From: Spirogloea muscicola
Taxonomy: Eukaryota > Streptophyta > Zygnematophyceae > Spirogloeales > Spirogloeaceae
Direction: 5' to 3'
Assembly (NCBI GenBank): GCA_009602725.1
Contig: WELB01000053.1
Span: 534,880 to 560,728, forward strand
Length of the DNA: 25,849 nucleotides
Positions 10,859 through 25,849 of the stretch are shown here, piece by piece (the stretch's first letter is position 1; each line of letters opens with the position of its first letter). The notes under the pieces were generated by a model, which saw only the letters and a program-made list of their open reading frames with translations, did not search any database and was not told the origin of the DNA. The translations under genes were made by a program, and so were the position numbers.

Positions 10859-13157
10859 TCACAAGAGGGTGGAGGCGGACGATGTCCGCAGCGTCGATGG
10901 GCCGCCCCCCAGCGAGAGGACGACAATAGTGACGTCGTCGTGGTACTTGCGGCGCCGCCCGATGGGCACCGCCTTCAGCTGCTCAACCGTCATGCTGGCG
11001 TGCTCGGCAGCACGCACGAGGAGCTGCTCAAGCATGTGCCTGGCAGGGTCGCCATGCGGGTGCGCTGCCGTGAAGGCCGCCACGTGGTCCACAACCTGCT
11101 GGTCCGTGAAGAAGTCAAAGAGGCCGTCGGAGCCGAGCACGACAAAGGCGTCGGCCGGCGTCACGCGGTGCGCCCTGACCGACGGTGCGGAGCTGACATA
11201 AGGCGGGCTGTCGAGGCCGCGCACGCGCAAGATGCCCATCAGCCCGTCATTGAAGTGCGCCTGCAGATTAAGTCACGGCTTACATTGGCTCAGTCAGTAT
11301 CCTCAAGCACCGCCTGATCACGATTCCACAGAGTGCTCTTAAGTCAACACTGGTGATCTTCGAACCCACATTTGATCATGTTTCCTCATGGGCCTTCATC
11401 CATGACTTGTCAAGCCAGGGGAAAAGAGAGGAGAGGGTGCGTACGCTTTTGAGATAGCCAGCGCCAAAGGCGCGCGTGAGGCGCAGCTTGCCCTTGACGC
11501 GCGTGCCAACTATGGCAGTCGGGTCGTCAGGGTGCTCGGCCATCACACGCTCGCGCTCTGGCTCGCTGTCCACCGTGTGCACCTCCGTGAGCGCCGTCGC
11601 CACCAGTGGCGTGTCGCTGCTGCCGCCGGCGCCAGGCCGGCGGGTGGCCAGGACGGCGCGCGAGTCGCCGACGTTGAGGGCGAAGAGGTCATCGCCTTGG
11701 ACGAGGACGGCAAGGACGCAGGAGCCGACCATGGCAAGGTCGGGCCGGTCGTCCATCTCCTGCTCCACCATCTCCAAGAAGTCCGCCTCAGTCGCAGCCA
11801 GCGCACCGACCATGCGGCCCATCACCGCCTCGCGCACCGCCGCCTCGCTCGGCGGCCGGGCCGCCTCCGCCTCCGCCACGCCATGCTCGGGCACGTCCGG
11901 CAGCAGCATGTGGGTAATTGGCCGGCTGCAGTCGTGGTCGGTGGCGGCGAAGGCCGAAGCATCATGAGCGAGCTGCCAGTCGAGGAGGCGCAGCTGCTGG
12001 CCGATTCGCTCATAGAGGTTGGCGGCCAGGAAGTCAGCAGCGTCACGGCCGTTGAAGCCATCGTATATGCCGCAGAAGAGCCAGCCGTCCTCCTCGGAGC
12101 ACACCGCCTGCACGCGGTCCTCGCCGGCGGCGCCGCCGGCGACCTGCAGCTCCGGCGCAGCCGGCAGGAGCCCACTACTGCCCTCAGGGAGCACCACCAT
12201 GCTGCCGCTCCGTGATCGAGCGAGTAAGTCTGGCGCGGCCGCCGCTGCCCCTGCCACTGCCGCCACCTTGGTGCTGCTTTCGCTGCCGCCGCCGCCGCCG
12301 CTATTGAAGCTGCCGGAGGAGGGCGGGGAGAGGGAGCCGAGGCCGCCGCCGGCCGAGGACGCGAGGCTGCCGCTGGCGGAGGACGAGAGGTCGGAGCTGC
12401 CGGCGGAGCCCGAGCTGCTGGCGAGCGAGAGGGAGCCGCCCGCGGACTCGACGCGGCGGAAAGTGCGGGGCGAGTCCAGGCCCGGCAGGACCACGCCGCC
12501 GATGAGGCCGCCCGCCAGCGTCGTGTTGGCCAGTGTGGCGTTGGCGCCCATGGCCGCGCCCGCGAGGCAGTGGAACGAGCCGCTCCGCCGCGACCGTACG
12601 CTGCCCTCCTCGCTCTGGCAGCAGACAAAGTCAGCGTCAGTGTCAGTGTCAGCGTCAGCAGTGAGAGCCTTGCCATAGTTTCTAACACACAGGATCCTCC
12701 CGTCGCCGGCGCTGGGACAAGCCCGGCGGCATGGCGGCCATGCATTGCGAGCGGCAACATCGGCGCCGGTCGCTGCCCCTCCGACACCAGTCGTGGGCAT
12801 AGCTGCGGCCGTCATCGCGGCGGCAAGCCGGCGGCTTTGGCGCGGAAGGCTCGGCTTTGGCGCCCGCTGCGTGCGAGATGGCACCAAAGCGGCGCCTTCG
12901 GAGCGCAGCCGCAGCCACTGGGCAGAGATGGATGCGGCCATCGTCGGCGATGGATGCGACAGCCGTCGGCGGCGGCGGTGGCTCACCGGCGAGTGGCCGC
13001 CCCAGTCGAGGCCGGCGACGGAGGAGGACGAGGGCGACGCCGCGGCGCCAGCGGCATCGTCGTCGTCGGGGAGCGCGCAGCTGCTGCGACACTGGTACTC
13101 GAAGCTCACGCTGAGCTCCTCCGCCGGCGGCGCGGCCGCTGCTGCGGCGGCGGCCAT
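10859..13157 (-). CDS. PP2C-type protein phosphatase, POLTERGEIST/PLL-like; N terminus in assembly gap
   Basis: Two exons are modelled: 13157-11445 (571 codons) and 11260-10859 (133 codons plus TGA), joined in phase 0 at a GTACGC donor. PP2C enzymes are Mg/Mn-dependent Ser/Thr phosphatases. Motif I is GIYDGFNG (Asp about residue 366), with Phe in place of the usual His, as in the plant POL/PLL clade. Further motifs are GDSRAVLA, RLTRAFGAGYL across the intron, GSDGLFDFF (Asp about 616) and HDDVTIVV (about 678-683), so the metal-binding aspartates are present. The first 350 residues are Ser/Ala/Gly-rich and poorly conserved. A 72-nt stretch at 12686-12615 begins with GT and ends in a pyrimidine tract plus CAG. 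It could be a retained, frame-neutral intron. The frame stays open upstream of the Met at 13157 into the N run, so the true start is probably missing. POL/PLL proteins act in receptor-kinase signalling in plants; the algal role is unknown. Confidence 0.88.
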
Positions 13158-13186
13158 GGCCTCGGCCGTCGCCGCCGCCGCCTCCG

Positions 13187-13363
13187 NNNNNNNNNNNNNN
13201 NNNNNNNNNNNNNNNNNNNNNNNNNNNNNNNNNNNNNNNNNNNNNNNNNNNNNNNNNNNNNNNNNNNNNNNNNNNNNNNNNNNNNNNNNNNNNNNNNNNN
13301 NNNNNNNNNNNNNNNNNNNNNNNNNNNNNNNNNNNNNNNNNNNNNNNNNNNNNNNNNNNNNNN
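13187..13363. other. Assembly gap (177 N)
   Basis: A run of 177 N is flanked on both sides by GCC/CCG-rich sequence. It interrupts the 5' end of the PP2C gene, so the start codon and leader of that gene cannot be read. The flanking trinucleotide sequence suggests the gap is a GC-rich repeat that failed to assemble. Confidence 0.99.
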
Positions 13364-14207
13364 CGCCGCCTCCGCCGCAACAGATCGCGGCGCGAGGCGA
13401 GGCGCGAGGCGCGGCGGCGGCGCCGCTGGCGGCGGCGAGGGTCTAGCGATGGCGGAGGGGGGGGATTTTCCTCCACACCGCTGAGGAGGAGGGGGGGAGG
13501 GCCGGGAGGCGAGAGGCCTAGATGGGCGTGTGAGCGGCGGGTGGGGAGGGGGGGAGGGCGCAATCTCCCGGCGCCGCTGATATACTCGTATTATTTCGTT
13601 TCAGCCGGCGCTGGGATTCGTGTCAAACCCCCCGGGGGCCCTCCTCCGGATTCGGCCGCCTGGCCGATTTGCTTGCCATTGGCCGCCAGGCGGTGGCGGC
13701 ACAATTTGTCCGAGGCGCCCCGGGCTTTTGCCACCGTTGGGGGTTGGATGTGGGGGGAGGACTGCTAGCCCCGCCCCCGCAGTTTGTGCACATTGACCGC
13801 CTGCGACGGCGCGGCTTGACCGGGCATCGCCCGAATTGGCGCCCCCGGGGGGAAGGGGGTCGGGGACGTTTGCCCGCTGCCCCGCGCCGCGACAAGCGGC
13901 CGGGTGGGCCCCGCGCGGCGGACGTTCAGCGGCGCGGCCTCCCACGTGGATCCCCGTGTGCCACGCGGCACCAGTCGTCCCATGCCTTTCCGTGCCTTTC
14001 CGAGCCGGGGTGTCGGTGCCTGTCCCCCGTGTCCCCGCGGAACCGTCGGCCCGTCGCGCCTCCCCAACCACCTACCGTTGCTTCGGCGTCGTCTGATCCG
14101 ACCCCCCAACCCAGAGCCGTTCCAGGCCTTGCCCTCGGGTGCCTACCCTGCACTGGGGGCAGGCTCATGCTCACCGCGCGCCTTCACTCTCATCGTCGGT
14201 TTTGCAT
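13364..14207. other. GC-rich spacer upstream of the PP2C gene
   Basis: About 840 bases of very GC-rich sequence. Several long overlapping frames are open on both strands, which is expected from base composition, and none resembles a known protein. On the minus strand a TATA-like GTATATC (13585-13579) sits in a short AT-rich patch about 420 bases before the visible PP2C start and is a weak promoter candidate. Nothing else is supported. Confidence 0.4.
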
Positions 14208-14331
14208 GTGCTCACCTGTGGGTACTGACGTTACACTGTTACCTTAGCCACCTTAGCATAGGGGAAGCCCTATGTAGAGCCTTACTCTTCTTGCACTGGT
14301 ATTTGCCGGAACAATGCATTGCCTTGGATTG
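14208..14331 (+). repeat. Dispersed repeat, short copy (introner-like element candidate)
   Basis: This 124-base segment matches the two ends of the longer element at 20030-20560. The shared head is GTGCTCACCTGTGGGTACT, followed by an ACTGTTACCTTAGCCAC unit and TTAGCATAGGG. The shared tail is a GAACAATG…TTGGATTG stretch. A stem-loop (CATAGGG-GAAG-CCCTATG) lies in the middle. It begins with GT, and 17 bases after its end comes a pyrimidine tract ending CCCAG (14344-14348), so 14208-14348 has the form of a 141-bp intron. No flanking exon is recognised, so it may instead be an intergenic copy. It also carries TTACA (14231-14235), a TGTAA signal for the minus-strand PhzF gene 550 bases away. Confidence 0.75.
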
Positions 14332-14782
14332 ACCTCCCTGTCTCCCAGCGCAGCCCATGACGGTGGTGGTCCGAGCCCCGCAGCATCGTCCGCCCCGTGC
14401 CAGCAGATAGACGCCAAAGCAGAGGGCTGCCCGGAAGTCTTCACTTGGACATTGTATGAGCTGGCTTCGATCCTCAAGCCCGCCGGACATTTCCCATCGC
14501 GGAGCCAAACCCGCTAGTGCCGCTTCACCTCACAGGGCGCTGATCGGGACCACAGCCCACGGTACAGCAGCCTGCTCTCACAAGTGGGGCAGAATCCAGG
14601 AACGCTGTACGCATGCTAGGATTCCACTCTCCTTCTGAGGCAGCATCGAACGTTTTTCCGGCCAGAGAGCCGAAGGCAATGCTACGTTTGGCCTGTCCTG
14701 AATGTGGTCATATCACAAGAAGTGCGAGCATCCGCACGGGCTACTCACAACAATCCTGGCTTGACCAAGCCAGCGGACCGCC
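14332..14782. other. Intergenic sequence downstream of the PhzF-like gene
   Basis: These 450 bases follow the TAG of the minus-strand PhzF gene and run to the short repeat copy. Small open frames occur on both strands, but none resembles a known protein or shows matching splice sites. It is probably the 3' untranslated and intergenic sequence of the PhzF-like gene. Confidence 0.45.
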
Positions 14783-19889: not shown

Positions 19890-20974
19890 CTCCTCTGGGA
19901 AGTCGGAGAAAAGCGGCCGGACGCCGCCGCCGCCGCTGCAGCCGCCGCCGCCGCCGGTGGCAGGGCGCCGCCGCCCAACGTCAAGTCGGCGGAGCAGCTG
20001 GACCTCACCACCTTCCAGCTCCTCCTCAGGTGCTCACCTGTGGGTACTAACGTCTCACTGTTACCTTAAGCCACACTGTTACCTTGGCCACACTGTTACC
20101 TTAGCCACACTGTTACTTCAGCCACCTTAGCATAGGGCTTCGCTTAATGTAACCCATCTATGATACTGATTGTTGCCTGCTCACTGTTACCTTAGCCACC
20201 TTAGCATAGGGCTTCGTTTTATGTAGACCCATTAGTTGCACTAGCACTAGCACTATAGCACTAGCACTAGCATTAGCACCAGCACTAGTACTGGCACAAG
20301 CACTAGCACGAGCACAAGCACTACACTAGCACTAGCACTAGCACTAGCACTAGCTCTAGCACTACACTGGCACAAGCACTAGCACAAGCACTACACTAGC
20401 TCTAGCACTAGCACTAGCACTGGCACAAGCTCTAGCACAAGCACTACACTAGCTCTAGCACTAGCACTAGCACTAGCACCAGCACTAGCACTAGCACTAC
20501 ACTAGCACTACCAATAGCACTAGCACTAGTTTTTCCTGAACAATGAATTTGCTTGGATTGGCCACCATTTGATGATTGGCCACCATGCGCGCCGCGCGCC
20601 TTCTCTCAGGCTCGCCCGCGACACCTTCTGCCTTGGCGCCGCCTTTGCGCTCGTGGGCATTGCCCGCGCCGCCGAGTCCGTGCTCGCCGTTGCCGCCATG
20701 CCGCCGTCCGCGCCGCTGTGGGAGAAGGCCATGGCGCTGCTCAACCCCGTGGAGCTCTTCACGCTCGCCTGGCTGGCCTTCGAGCTCCGCAAGCCCCTCG
20801 TGGCCTTCACTTCCGTCGACCCCGCCGACGAGGACCACATCTTCGAGCTCCGCACCCGCTTCCTCCGAGAGCTCCACAACTTCTTCGGCCGCGTCTGGAA
20901 GCTGGTGAGCTCAGCCACCTCACACGTCCACTGAGCGCCATGTTCCTTTTCAGAATGACGGGATAAGATGCTGA
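19890..20974 (+). CDS. Putative membrane protein, family not recognised (5' end unresolved)
   Basis: An Ala/Pro-rich exon ends at 20029 with …VKSAEQLDLTTFQLLLR. It joins exon 20610-20904 in phase 2, giving LLLR-LARDTFCLGAAFALVG. Exon 20954-20974 (NDGIRC, then TGA) may close the gene after a 49-base intron. The second exon encodes one clear hydrophobic segment (FCLGAAFALVGIARAAESVLAVAA) and a second, weaker one (LFTLAWLAFELRKPLVAF). A charged helix (DEDHIFELRTRFLRELHNFF) follows. I do not recognise the family. The 580-base intron is almost wholly made of the long copy of the dispersed repeat. The start is unknown: the frame is closed by TGA at 19887-19889, and a Met at 19834 lies in another frame before a CCG run where an assembly indel is possible. 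Confidence 0.55.
20030..20560 (+). repeat. Dispersed repeat, long copy, occupying an intron (introner-like element candidate)
   Basis: The element starts exactly at the donor GT of an inferred intron (20030-20609) with GTGCTCACCTGTGGGTACT, the head shared with the copy at 14208. The 19-base unit present once in the short copy is here in four tandem variants (about 20051-20129). A longer block ending CCTTAGCATAGGGCTTCG then occurs a second time (about 20179-20217). A GCACTA satellite follows, and then the shared tail GAACAATG…GCTTGGATTG. The 3' splice site lies 49 bases beyond, after a duplicated 13-mer (GATTGGCCACCAT at 20556 and 20574). The match at both ends with a different interior shows one element that expanded internally. 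Confidence 0.8.
20238..20530 (+). repeat. GCACTA hexanucleotide satellite with higher-order repeat
   Basis: About 290 bases consist of degenerate GCACTA units with variants such as GCACAA, GCTCTA and GCACCA. Two long near-identical blocks beginning AGCACAAGCACTACACTAGC start at 20381 and 20434, giving a higher-order period of about 53 bases. The tract lies wholly inside the long repeat copy, and so inside an intron. The short copy at 14208 lacks it. Confidence 0.9.
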
Positions 20975-24800: not shown

Positions 24801-25788
24801 TCAAGGTGGCCGCGTGCTGACGGAGGCAGCACCTGCGGCCAGGTGCTGCCGATGGGATGGTGCCGCAGTACCATAGGCCGAGTTCCAGGGGCCGCCTGCA
24901 CGCGCATAGTAGTCCATGGAGTATGCTGCCACCGACTCCTCCTCCTCAGAGAGCTCATCCGCCCCGCCCAGTCCGAAGCATTGGCCCCTTGCCCCATCTG
25001 CCGATTTGGGCGCTGCGGGCGCACACGTGGCGGGGTCGGAGCAGGCGCCATCGCAGTGGTCATGGTTGGACGGGTGCCGCTTCCACCATGGCCGCACGGC
25101 CCCGAGCGCGACGGTCGCCTCGAATGGCGTCAACAGTGGCACTGCAAAAGTCTCGCCCCAGTCGATGGACAGCCGCGGGCAGGCCACCTGGACCCAGGCC
25201 TCGATCGACGACCCGAAGCTAGCCACCTTGGCTGGCGACAGCTCCGAGACAAGGACGATGATGTGTGAGAGGTTGCGCTCGTCCAACAGCCGGCGCACGT
25301 AGTGCAGCGTGCGCAGATTGCCCTGCCGCCCCAGCGTGCCAAGGACCAGGCCCCAGCGCCGCGCAGGCGCAGCCTTCTCAATCGCGCTCCTCCGAGCTCG
25401 CCGCATGCCCGCCTGGTCGTACTTCTCCAGCGTGAGCACGCGAGCGTACGGGTCGTAGCGGTAGGCCGGCATCGCTGGGTTGGCAATCATGATGGCCTCC
25501 AGGTGGAAGCGACCATCGGCGACGAAGACGATCGAGTCCGCATCGCCCGCCGGCAGCGCAGGCGCGGTGCAGCCCAGGACCTCGCCGGGCGACAGCGGCT
25601 TGGCCTGCGGGATGCGCAGCGACGGGAAGTCATCCGCGAGCGCCGCCCTGGCCGCCTGGAGCGCCGTTGAGAACTGAATCGTGCCGGCCAGCATCAGACG
25701 GGCGCCGCACTCAAAGTTGCGCCGCACGGTCGCCACCAGGTGCTCCACGTCGATGCCAATCTCCACGAAGACGTACATGCAGGGTATC
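24801..25788 (-). CDS. DPH1: Diphthamide synthase subunit DPH1, 3' exon (partial)
   Basis: One exon of 328 codons with its stop at 24803-24801. It begins after a CAG acceptor at 25789, in phase 2, so the gene continues beyond the window. With DPH2, DPH1 moves the 3-amino-3-carboxypropyl group of S-adenosylmethionine to a histidine of elongation factor 2, the first step of diphthamide synthesis in the cytosol. Visible motifs are MYVFVEIGIDVEHL, LAGTIQF, IPQAKPLSPGEVLGCTAP, FVADGRFHLEAIMIANP, RYDPY, WGLVLGTLGRQGN, SELSPAKVASF, VACPRLSIDWGE and LLTPFEA. Two of the three cysteines that hold the [4Fe-4S] cluster are here (GCTAP and ACPRL); the first should lie upstream. The C-terminal tail has a Cys-containing insertion (CDGACSDPATC) and ends after YSMDYYARAGGPWN, which resembles other DPH1 tails. 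Confidence 0.95.
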
Positions 25789-25849
25789 CTGCGCAGCCGT
25801 CGCCGCCATGGCAGCCGAACGCAAGAGCGTGAGGCCGAGGGCAACAGCG

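Follow-up and report, generated by a model that had tools for sequence, protein, structure and literature searches.

Can a single retrotransposon insertion become a complete intron? This question was raised by a locus in a stretch of 25,849 nucleotides of Spirogloea muscicola DNA (hereafter the window), where a first-pass annotation had noticed a repeat at two sites that in one of them starts together with a predicted intron (20030-20609), and had proposed it as a candidate introner-like element. The underlying observations were reproduced. The 19-base head of the repeat (GTGCTCACCTGTGGGTACT) is found, exact and on the forward strand, at 14208-14226 and 20030-20048, where 0 were expected from 100 shuffles, and its reverse complement reads GTGAGCAC. 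At 20030 the head begins on the first base of the intron that the reading frame predicts, with coding signal on both flanks, and the phase-2 join of 20029 to 20610 gives ...SAEQLDLTTFQLLLR-LARDTFCLG... with no stop near the join. The features of this locus are as follows.

19960-20029, forward strand: predicted end of the upstream exon, phase 2, ending ...CTCCTCCTCAG (frame score and GC3)
20030-20035, forward strand: predicted donor CAG|GTGCTC, at the 5' truncation point of a LINE (score 3.95)
20030-20607, forward strand: 5'-truncated LINE copy with the last ORF codons (VLTCGY), the stop and a 3' UTR with internal expansions (collinear genome matches and family comparison)
20056-20125, forward strand: tandem expansion within the LINE copy, 17-base unit CACTGTTACCTTAGCCA, 4.1 copies (TRF)
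20238-20529, forward strand: GCACTA array of 49 units within the 3' UTR of the LINE copy (TRF)
20535-20607, forward strand: LINE 3' end, finishing GCGCGCCTTCTCTC, as predicted pyrimidine tract (79% over 73 columns against an autonomous LINE copy)
20608-20609, forward strand: predicted acceptor AG, a probable duplicate of the target (CTC)AG (read from sequence; score 0.43)
20610-20904, forward strand: predicted downstream exon, LARDTFCLG...GRVWKL (frame score and GC3), whose frame continues to a nearby TGA unless another intron follows

The repeat proved to be dispersed on a larger scale than the window had indicated: in the 153.1-Mb assembly (471 contigs), the head matched 379 + 386 = 765 places with at most one mismatch, and its reversed control matched none. 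The family was compared by using 67 heads from the window and 60 fetched genome pieces, a non-random draw: all 17 places outside the window that match exactly, supplemented by the earliest one-mismatch places when the contigs are taken in order (C1-C4). Homology upstream of the head extended over 0 to 500 bases or more, 500 being as far as the pieces reach, and varied between copies, while the 3' end GCGCGCCTTCTCTC was common to most of them, so the repeat copies are 5'-truncated LINE copies. Given that the open frame upstream of the head ends with ...SLSDLFVLTRGY-stop, the head corresponds to the last codons of the LINE protein (VLTRGY) and its stop. Open frames spanning 1292 and 1453 residues were present in two LINE copies, with YADD and with Pfam RVT_1 matches at E values of 1e-14 and 8.5e-15. 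Thus, by both tests, a reverse transcriptase and variable 5' truncation with a constant 3' end, the repeat family is a LINE (i.e., a non-LTR retrotransposon). A 344-residue C-terminal piece of its protein gave at least 120 matches, fragments counted, and 20 copies besides the query's own were 99-100% identical to it over at least 336 residues, which argues that the family has been recently active.

The single ORF of this LINE contains an N-terminal zinc-finger-like motif, the reverse transcriptase, a linker with NALP (WLNALP), a CCHC-like knuckle and an acidic C-terminal region, an arrangement that resembles that of the R2-like LINEs with restriction-like endonuclease (RLE) as they are described in PMC5678591. 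R2-type (RLE) is, however, a likely label only: the spacing of the knuckle, CX1CX12HX3C, differs from the CX2-3CX7-8HX4C given there for the R2-like group, Pfam returned RVT_1 only, and no endonuclease model was matched. In addition, the R2-like group is generally site-specific according to the same source (PMC5678591), whereas the LINE studied here (L128 and the family) is dispersed with a bias toward pyrimidine-rich targets. The match of the LINE to R2 in the PDB was weak (E 0.006), and a PDB search with the 344-residue C-terminus gave six matches, all at E 1.6 or worse. The head pattern was found 0 times in viral contigs. Related repeats with a variant head beginning TTGCTCAC were observed on the forward strand in L045 (near 164) and L056 (near 730), which suggests that several LINE lineages may have a similar ORF end. 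In L026, L041, L051 and L059, a different dispersed repeat (about TTGTCCATTC..GGGCTGGC) lies directly next to LINE ends.

How far does the copy at 20030 extend? The head, middle and tail blocks of this copy matched elsewhere in the genome in collinear order, together over about 160 bases (BLAST), and the window copy is longer because of its 17-base tandem repeat and the 292-base GCACTA array, the latter occupying the position where the subfamily has TTGCACTAG. Among the 13 tail matches in other copies, 11 ended at query bases 604-609 (i.e., 20603-20608 of the window) and the other two at 570 and 574, and the LINE end GCGCGCCTTCTCTC was located at 20594-20607. The element therefore ends at the acceptor, rather than 49 bases before it as had been annotated; that estimate is explained by the second window copy (14208), which is without the LINE 3' end. 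The 3' end of the element (...CTTCTCTC, to 20607) touches the acceptor AG, and the element and the predicted intron coincide apart from this final AG. An intron derived from a transposable element should equal the element and take its splice sites from the element and/or the target duplication; the extent of this intron agrees with that definition, and the splice sites are those predicted above. In a subfamily alignment of 20 rows, for which TAGCATAGGGCT or TAGCACAGGGCT was required, five extra loci were offered by hand and the copies at 14208 and 20030 were added by hand, the window copy differed from the consensus at 17 of 160 sites (10.6%; 9 to 29% for the other 19 rows), and thus it is not a recent insertion.

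Both flanks of this copy look like coding sequence. For exon 2 (20610-20904), the joined frame scored +0.43 per codon, compared to -0.49 and -0.43 in the other forward frames, with a GC3 of 0.94; for the last 70 bases of exon 1, it scored +0.47, compared to -0.37 and -0.53, with G or C at the third position of 17 of 17 codons. Training of the codon model used 1,669 codons from four window ORFs, two of which are without an accepted family match, against a background of fetched loci. Minus-strand frames were also positive (0.28 and 0.38 for exon 2, 0.32 and 0.35 for exon 1), and over 19890-20029 one of them (0.398) was slightly above the joined frame (0.383), so the score fixes the frame among the forward frames and not the strand. 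Exon 2 keeps its open frame and high GC3 though the LINE copy has diverged as far as it has from its consensus. Simulated neutral decay lowered the GC3 of exon 2 to 0.86 but introduced no stop in 52% of runs, which makes an intact frame by itself weak evidence for constraint; an indel-based estimate ranged from 0.09 to 0.0006 when 2 to 6 events per 160 bases were assumed.

These scores also bear on the possibility that the gene model is wrong, with the LINE sitting in a broken gene or a 5' leader and the frames agreeing across the join by accident. Neither the joined product nor exon 2 alone matched Pfam, the open stretch upstream of 20029 contains no ATG, so that a further upstream exon must be assumed, and frame agreement by itself would be expected about once in three by chance. 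The positive minus-strand frames and the weak acceptor described below point in the same direction. We consider such an accident unlikely: coding signal reaches both edges of the LINE in matching frame, which it does at none of the other 44 copies sampled, and if the element were not spliced out, the upstream frame would run into a stop after 13 more codons.

The predicted splice sites were compared with 32 introns inferred in CCT chaperonin genes (12 loci). Below the donor score of CAG|GTGCTC (3.95), 13 of the 32 introns are listed (one of them, at 3.9, within rounding), while the acceptor score of 0.43 is weak, with only one of the 32 lower. It should be noted that these models kept 32 of the 35 exon pairs, were refitted to sites that they themselves had chosen and drew on loci that include five near-duplicate pairs, hence the introns are not independent. 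The CCT introns point to loose donors after AG, including a CAG|GTGCTT inferred in one CCT gene, which suggests that CAG|GTGCTC would be compatible with the donors of this genome. A candidate donor inside the LINE, GTGGGT, was rejected: it scored -3.34 and, checked by hand, would be out of frame with exon 2 when the acceptor at 20608 is used. Each CCT gene is found on two or three contigs that share the same exon layout (C63/C267, C119/C178/C347, C237/C255/C332, C1/C23/C34 and C8/C42), and the contig pairs that were compared showed small differences in intron length; perhaps the genome is duplicated or its haplotypes were left unmerged. For exon 2 of the host gene the assembly gave a single match, by which a second copy of this gene was ruled out.

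How the family inserts was examined in 51 copies, drawn from L001-L060 only, of which two have N flanks and four (L001/L002 and L007/L011) look like the same two insertions seen twice. The 5' starts were scattered, with 6 of the 51 lying within ten bases of the head. C+T made up 70% of the 10 bases that directly precede the element, compared to 55-59% further out (49 readable copies), and LINE copies thus favor pyrimidine-rich targets, as in CTCCTCCTCAG. A search for target duplications found a clear 45-base case in L049 and 7-9 bases in L001/L002, L022, L023 and L038, most other scores being low; these scores are without a shuffle control, the breakpoints are approximate, and the longer cases in CT-rich copies overlap the LINE tail.

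To summarize the anatomy of the locus, 20030-20607 is a 5'-truncated copy of the LINE 3' end, and the sequences on its two sides resemble coding exons whose frames meet once the LINE and the AG are removed. The reading that we favor, with a probability of roughly 0.6, is that a truncated LINE inserted in an exon at CTCAG|G became a precise phase-2 intron, the splicing being predicted and the insertion deduced from this anatomy. Target-primed reverse transcription would have placed a short LINE copy in the exon at CTCCTCCTCAG|G. The truncated end would by chance begin with GT beside the CAG of the exon and so provide the donor, the natural CTTCTCTC end of the LINE would provide the pyrimidine tract, and a short target duplication of 2-5 bases, (CTC)AG, would provide the acceptor AG. 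The spliceosome could then remove the whole LINE and leave the protein unchanged, and tandem expansions of 17-base and 6-base units within the intron would later have blurred the single event. Without the element the exon reads CTCCTCCTCAG|GCTCGCC, and with it CTCAG|GTGCTC...CTTCTCTC AG|GCTCGCC. The apparent duplication of 2-5 bases was found by eye, the automatic search having misplaced the tail of this copy; it overlaps the LINE's own CTC and may be due to chance.

An intron older than the LINE would lead to the same final arrangement if the LINE entered an existing intron and the residual intron sequence was then lost or replaced, so that the splice sites now lie at the LINE edges. Introns are common in the CCT genes, and the other LINE copies tested lie outside recognizable coding sequence, both of which are consistent with such a history. 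It would, however, require two independent exact losses, given that no residue of an earlier intron is left on either side except the AG, and we regard it as improbable compared to direct insertion into the exon.

Direct insertion of one LINE copy differs from the work of an introner family, that is, an element specialized for making introns genome-wide. The edge coincidence at 20030 and the hundreds of copies in the genome invite the latter interpretation, and the sharing of both edges by a mobile element and a predicted intron there is as expected of an intron created by insertion. The expectation of the first-pass annotation that copies would be biased to start at splice sites was not borne out: the repeat is the 3' end of a LINE with scattered 5' starts, AG precedes the head at only two places genome-wide (exact pattern), the window copy and L081, and AG precedes the element in 1 of the 49 readable copies surveyed. 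L081 was rejected as an intron, because all tested frames of both its flanks were negative. Among 45 evaluable copies, coding signal on both flanks was found at the window copy, whose edges were set by hand, and at none of the 44 others, with L013 reaching 0.30 on its downstream side only. Likewise, among 32 places where the exact tail is followed by AG, the window copy is the only one with coding signal on both sides (0 of the 31 others) and the only one with a downstream score of at least 0.3. In that set, 12 of the 31 upstream edges were called inside a related element (nine begin after ...TGTAA; also L095, L102 and L122), so that their upstream scores do not describe host flanks, while their downstream scores remain valid. 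Copies lying mostly in intergenic DNA without edge bias had been named beforehand as the outcome that would speak against an introner, and for the family the results match this outcome.

The CCT introns were also considered as introners and rejected: the 32 introns showed no similarity across non-paralogous genes, and one weak 40-base match to the LINE. Neither of the two marks of introners, many copies in introns of different genes and edges at splice sites across copies, was found among the copies tested. These tests contradict an introner family, which is highly improbable. The intron at 20030 was probably born once, in a single event, rather than as a member of a family that makes introns by itself. 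Since the truncation points are scattered, a chance start with GT after AG is about what many truncations would yield. The striking feature of the 20030 copy is its position between predicted coding exons.

Doc is a non-LTR element. In the account of PMC3296678, the retrotransposon Doc1053 made intron 3 of Drosophila sechellia GM26034, and there too the inserted retrotransposon constitutes the intron and the reading frame is kept. In that case, target duplications lie at the 5' end of the intron and 15 bases beyond its 3' end, and the protein gained five amino acids (PMC3296678), whereas the predicted join at 20030 is exact, with a duplication of no more than 5 bases. The Doc1053 intron also comes from a set of gained introns (PMC3296678). 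In the introners of Chrysochromulina sp., as described in PMC9860276, the element carries the 5' splice site, the 3' site is co-opted, and the target duplications are 4 bp, a division of labor and a short duplication that resemble those proposed here. Those introners belong to a family of many introns (PMC9860276), and the present intron is one LINE copy; most introners are, according to the same report, consistent with DNA transposition (PMC9860276). A review lists the insertion of transposons at AGGT among the proposed mechanisms of intron gain, with indirect evidence (PMC3443670). The 20030 case combines features of AGGT insertion, the Doc1053 intron and the Chrysochromulina introners, and it is not itself an introner.

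If the splicing is true, this locus would be a fairly clean case in which one LINE insertion gave one exact intron and in which the source of every splice signal can be traced (i.e., the truncation point, the LINE tail and the target duplication). Such traceable cases of intron gain are useful, because thousands of novel introns have, as stated in the review, origins for which the proposed mechanisms fail to account (PMC3443670). The locus also shows that coincidence of a repeat edge with a splice donor is insufficient for calling an introner, and that tests of both edge and context over many copies are needed. A wider reading, for which we see little likelihood at present, is that LINEs of this class make introns sporadically but are mechanistically prepared for it: their fixed pyrimidine 3' end, the bias toward CT-rich targets and short duplications might leave an acceptor ready at any landing site before AG|G, and any truncation starting with GT might then complete the intron. 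Introns of this origin would be scattered thinly over the genome, each with a different LINE start, and they would escape introner searches because these group introns by sequence likeness.

Elsewhere in the window, Rfam models (at the gathering threshold) and tRNA searches gave no match, and the following features were identified.

11376-13442, reverse strand: PP2C phosphatase gene (Pfam; the ORF holds an N gap at 13187-13363)
14195-14340, forward strand: second LINE copy of the window, not located at a recognized splice site (family comparison)
24801-25847, reverse strand: diphthamide synthesis protein gene (Pfam)

A diverged LINE tail (CCGCGCGCCTTCACTC) lies at 14166-14189, just upstream of the second copy (14208-14340), which indicates that two LINE insertions are adjacent or nested near 14166-14340.
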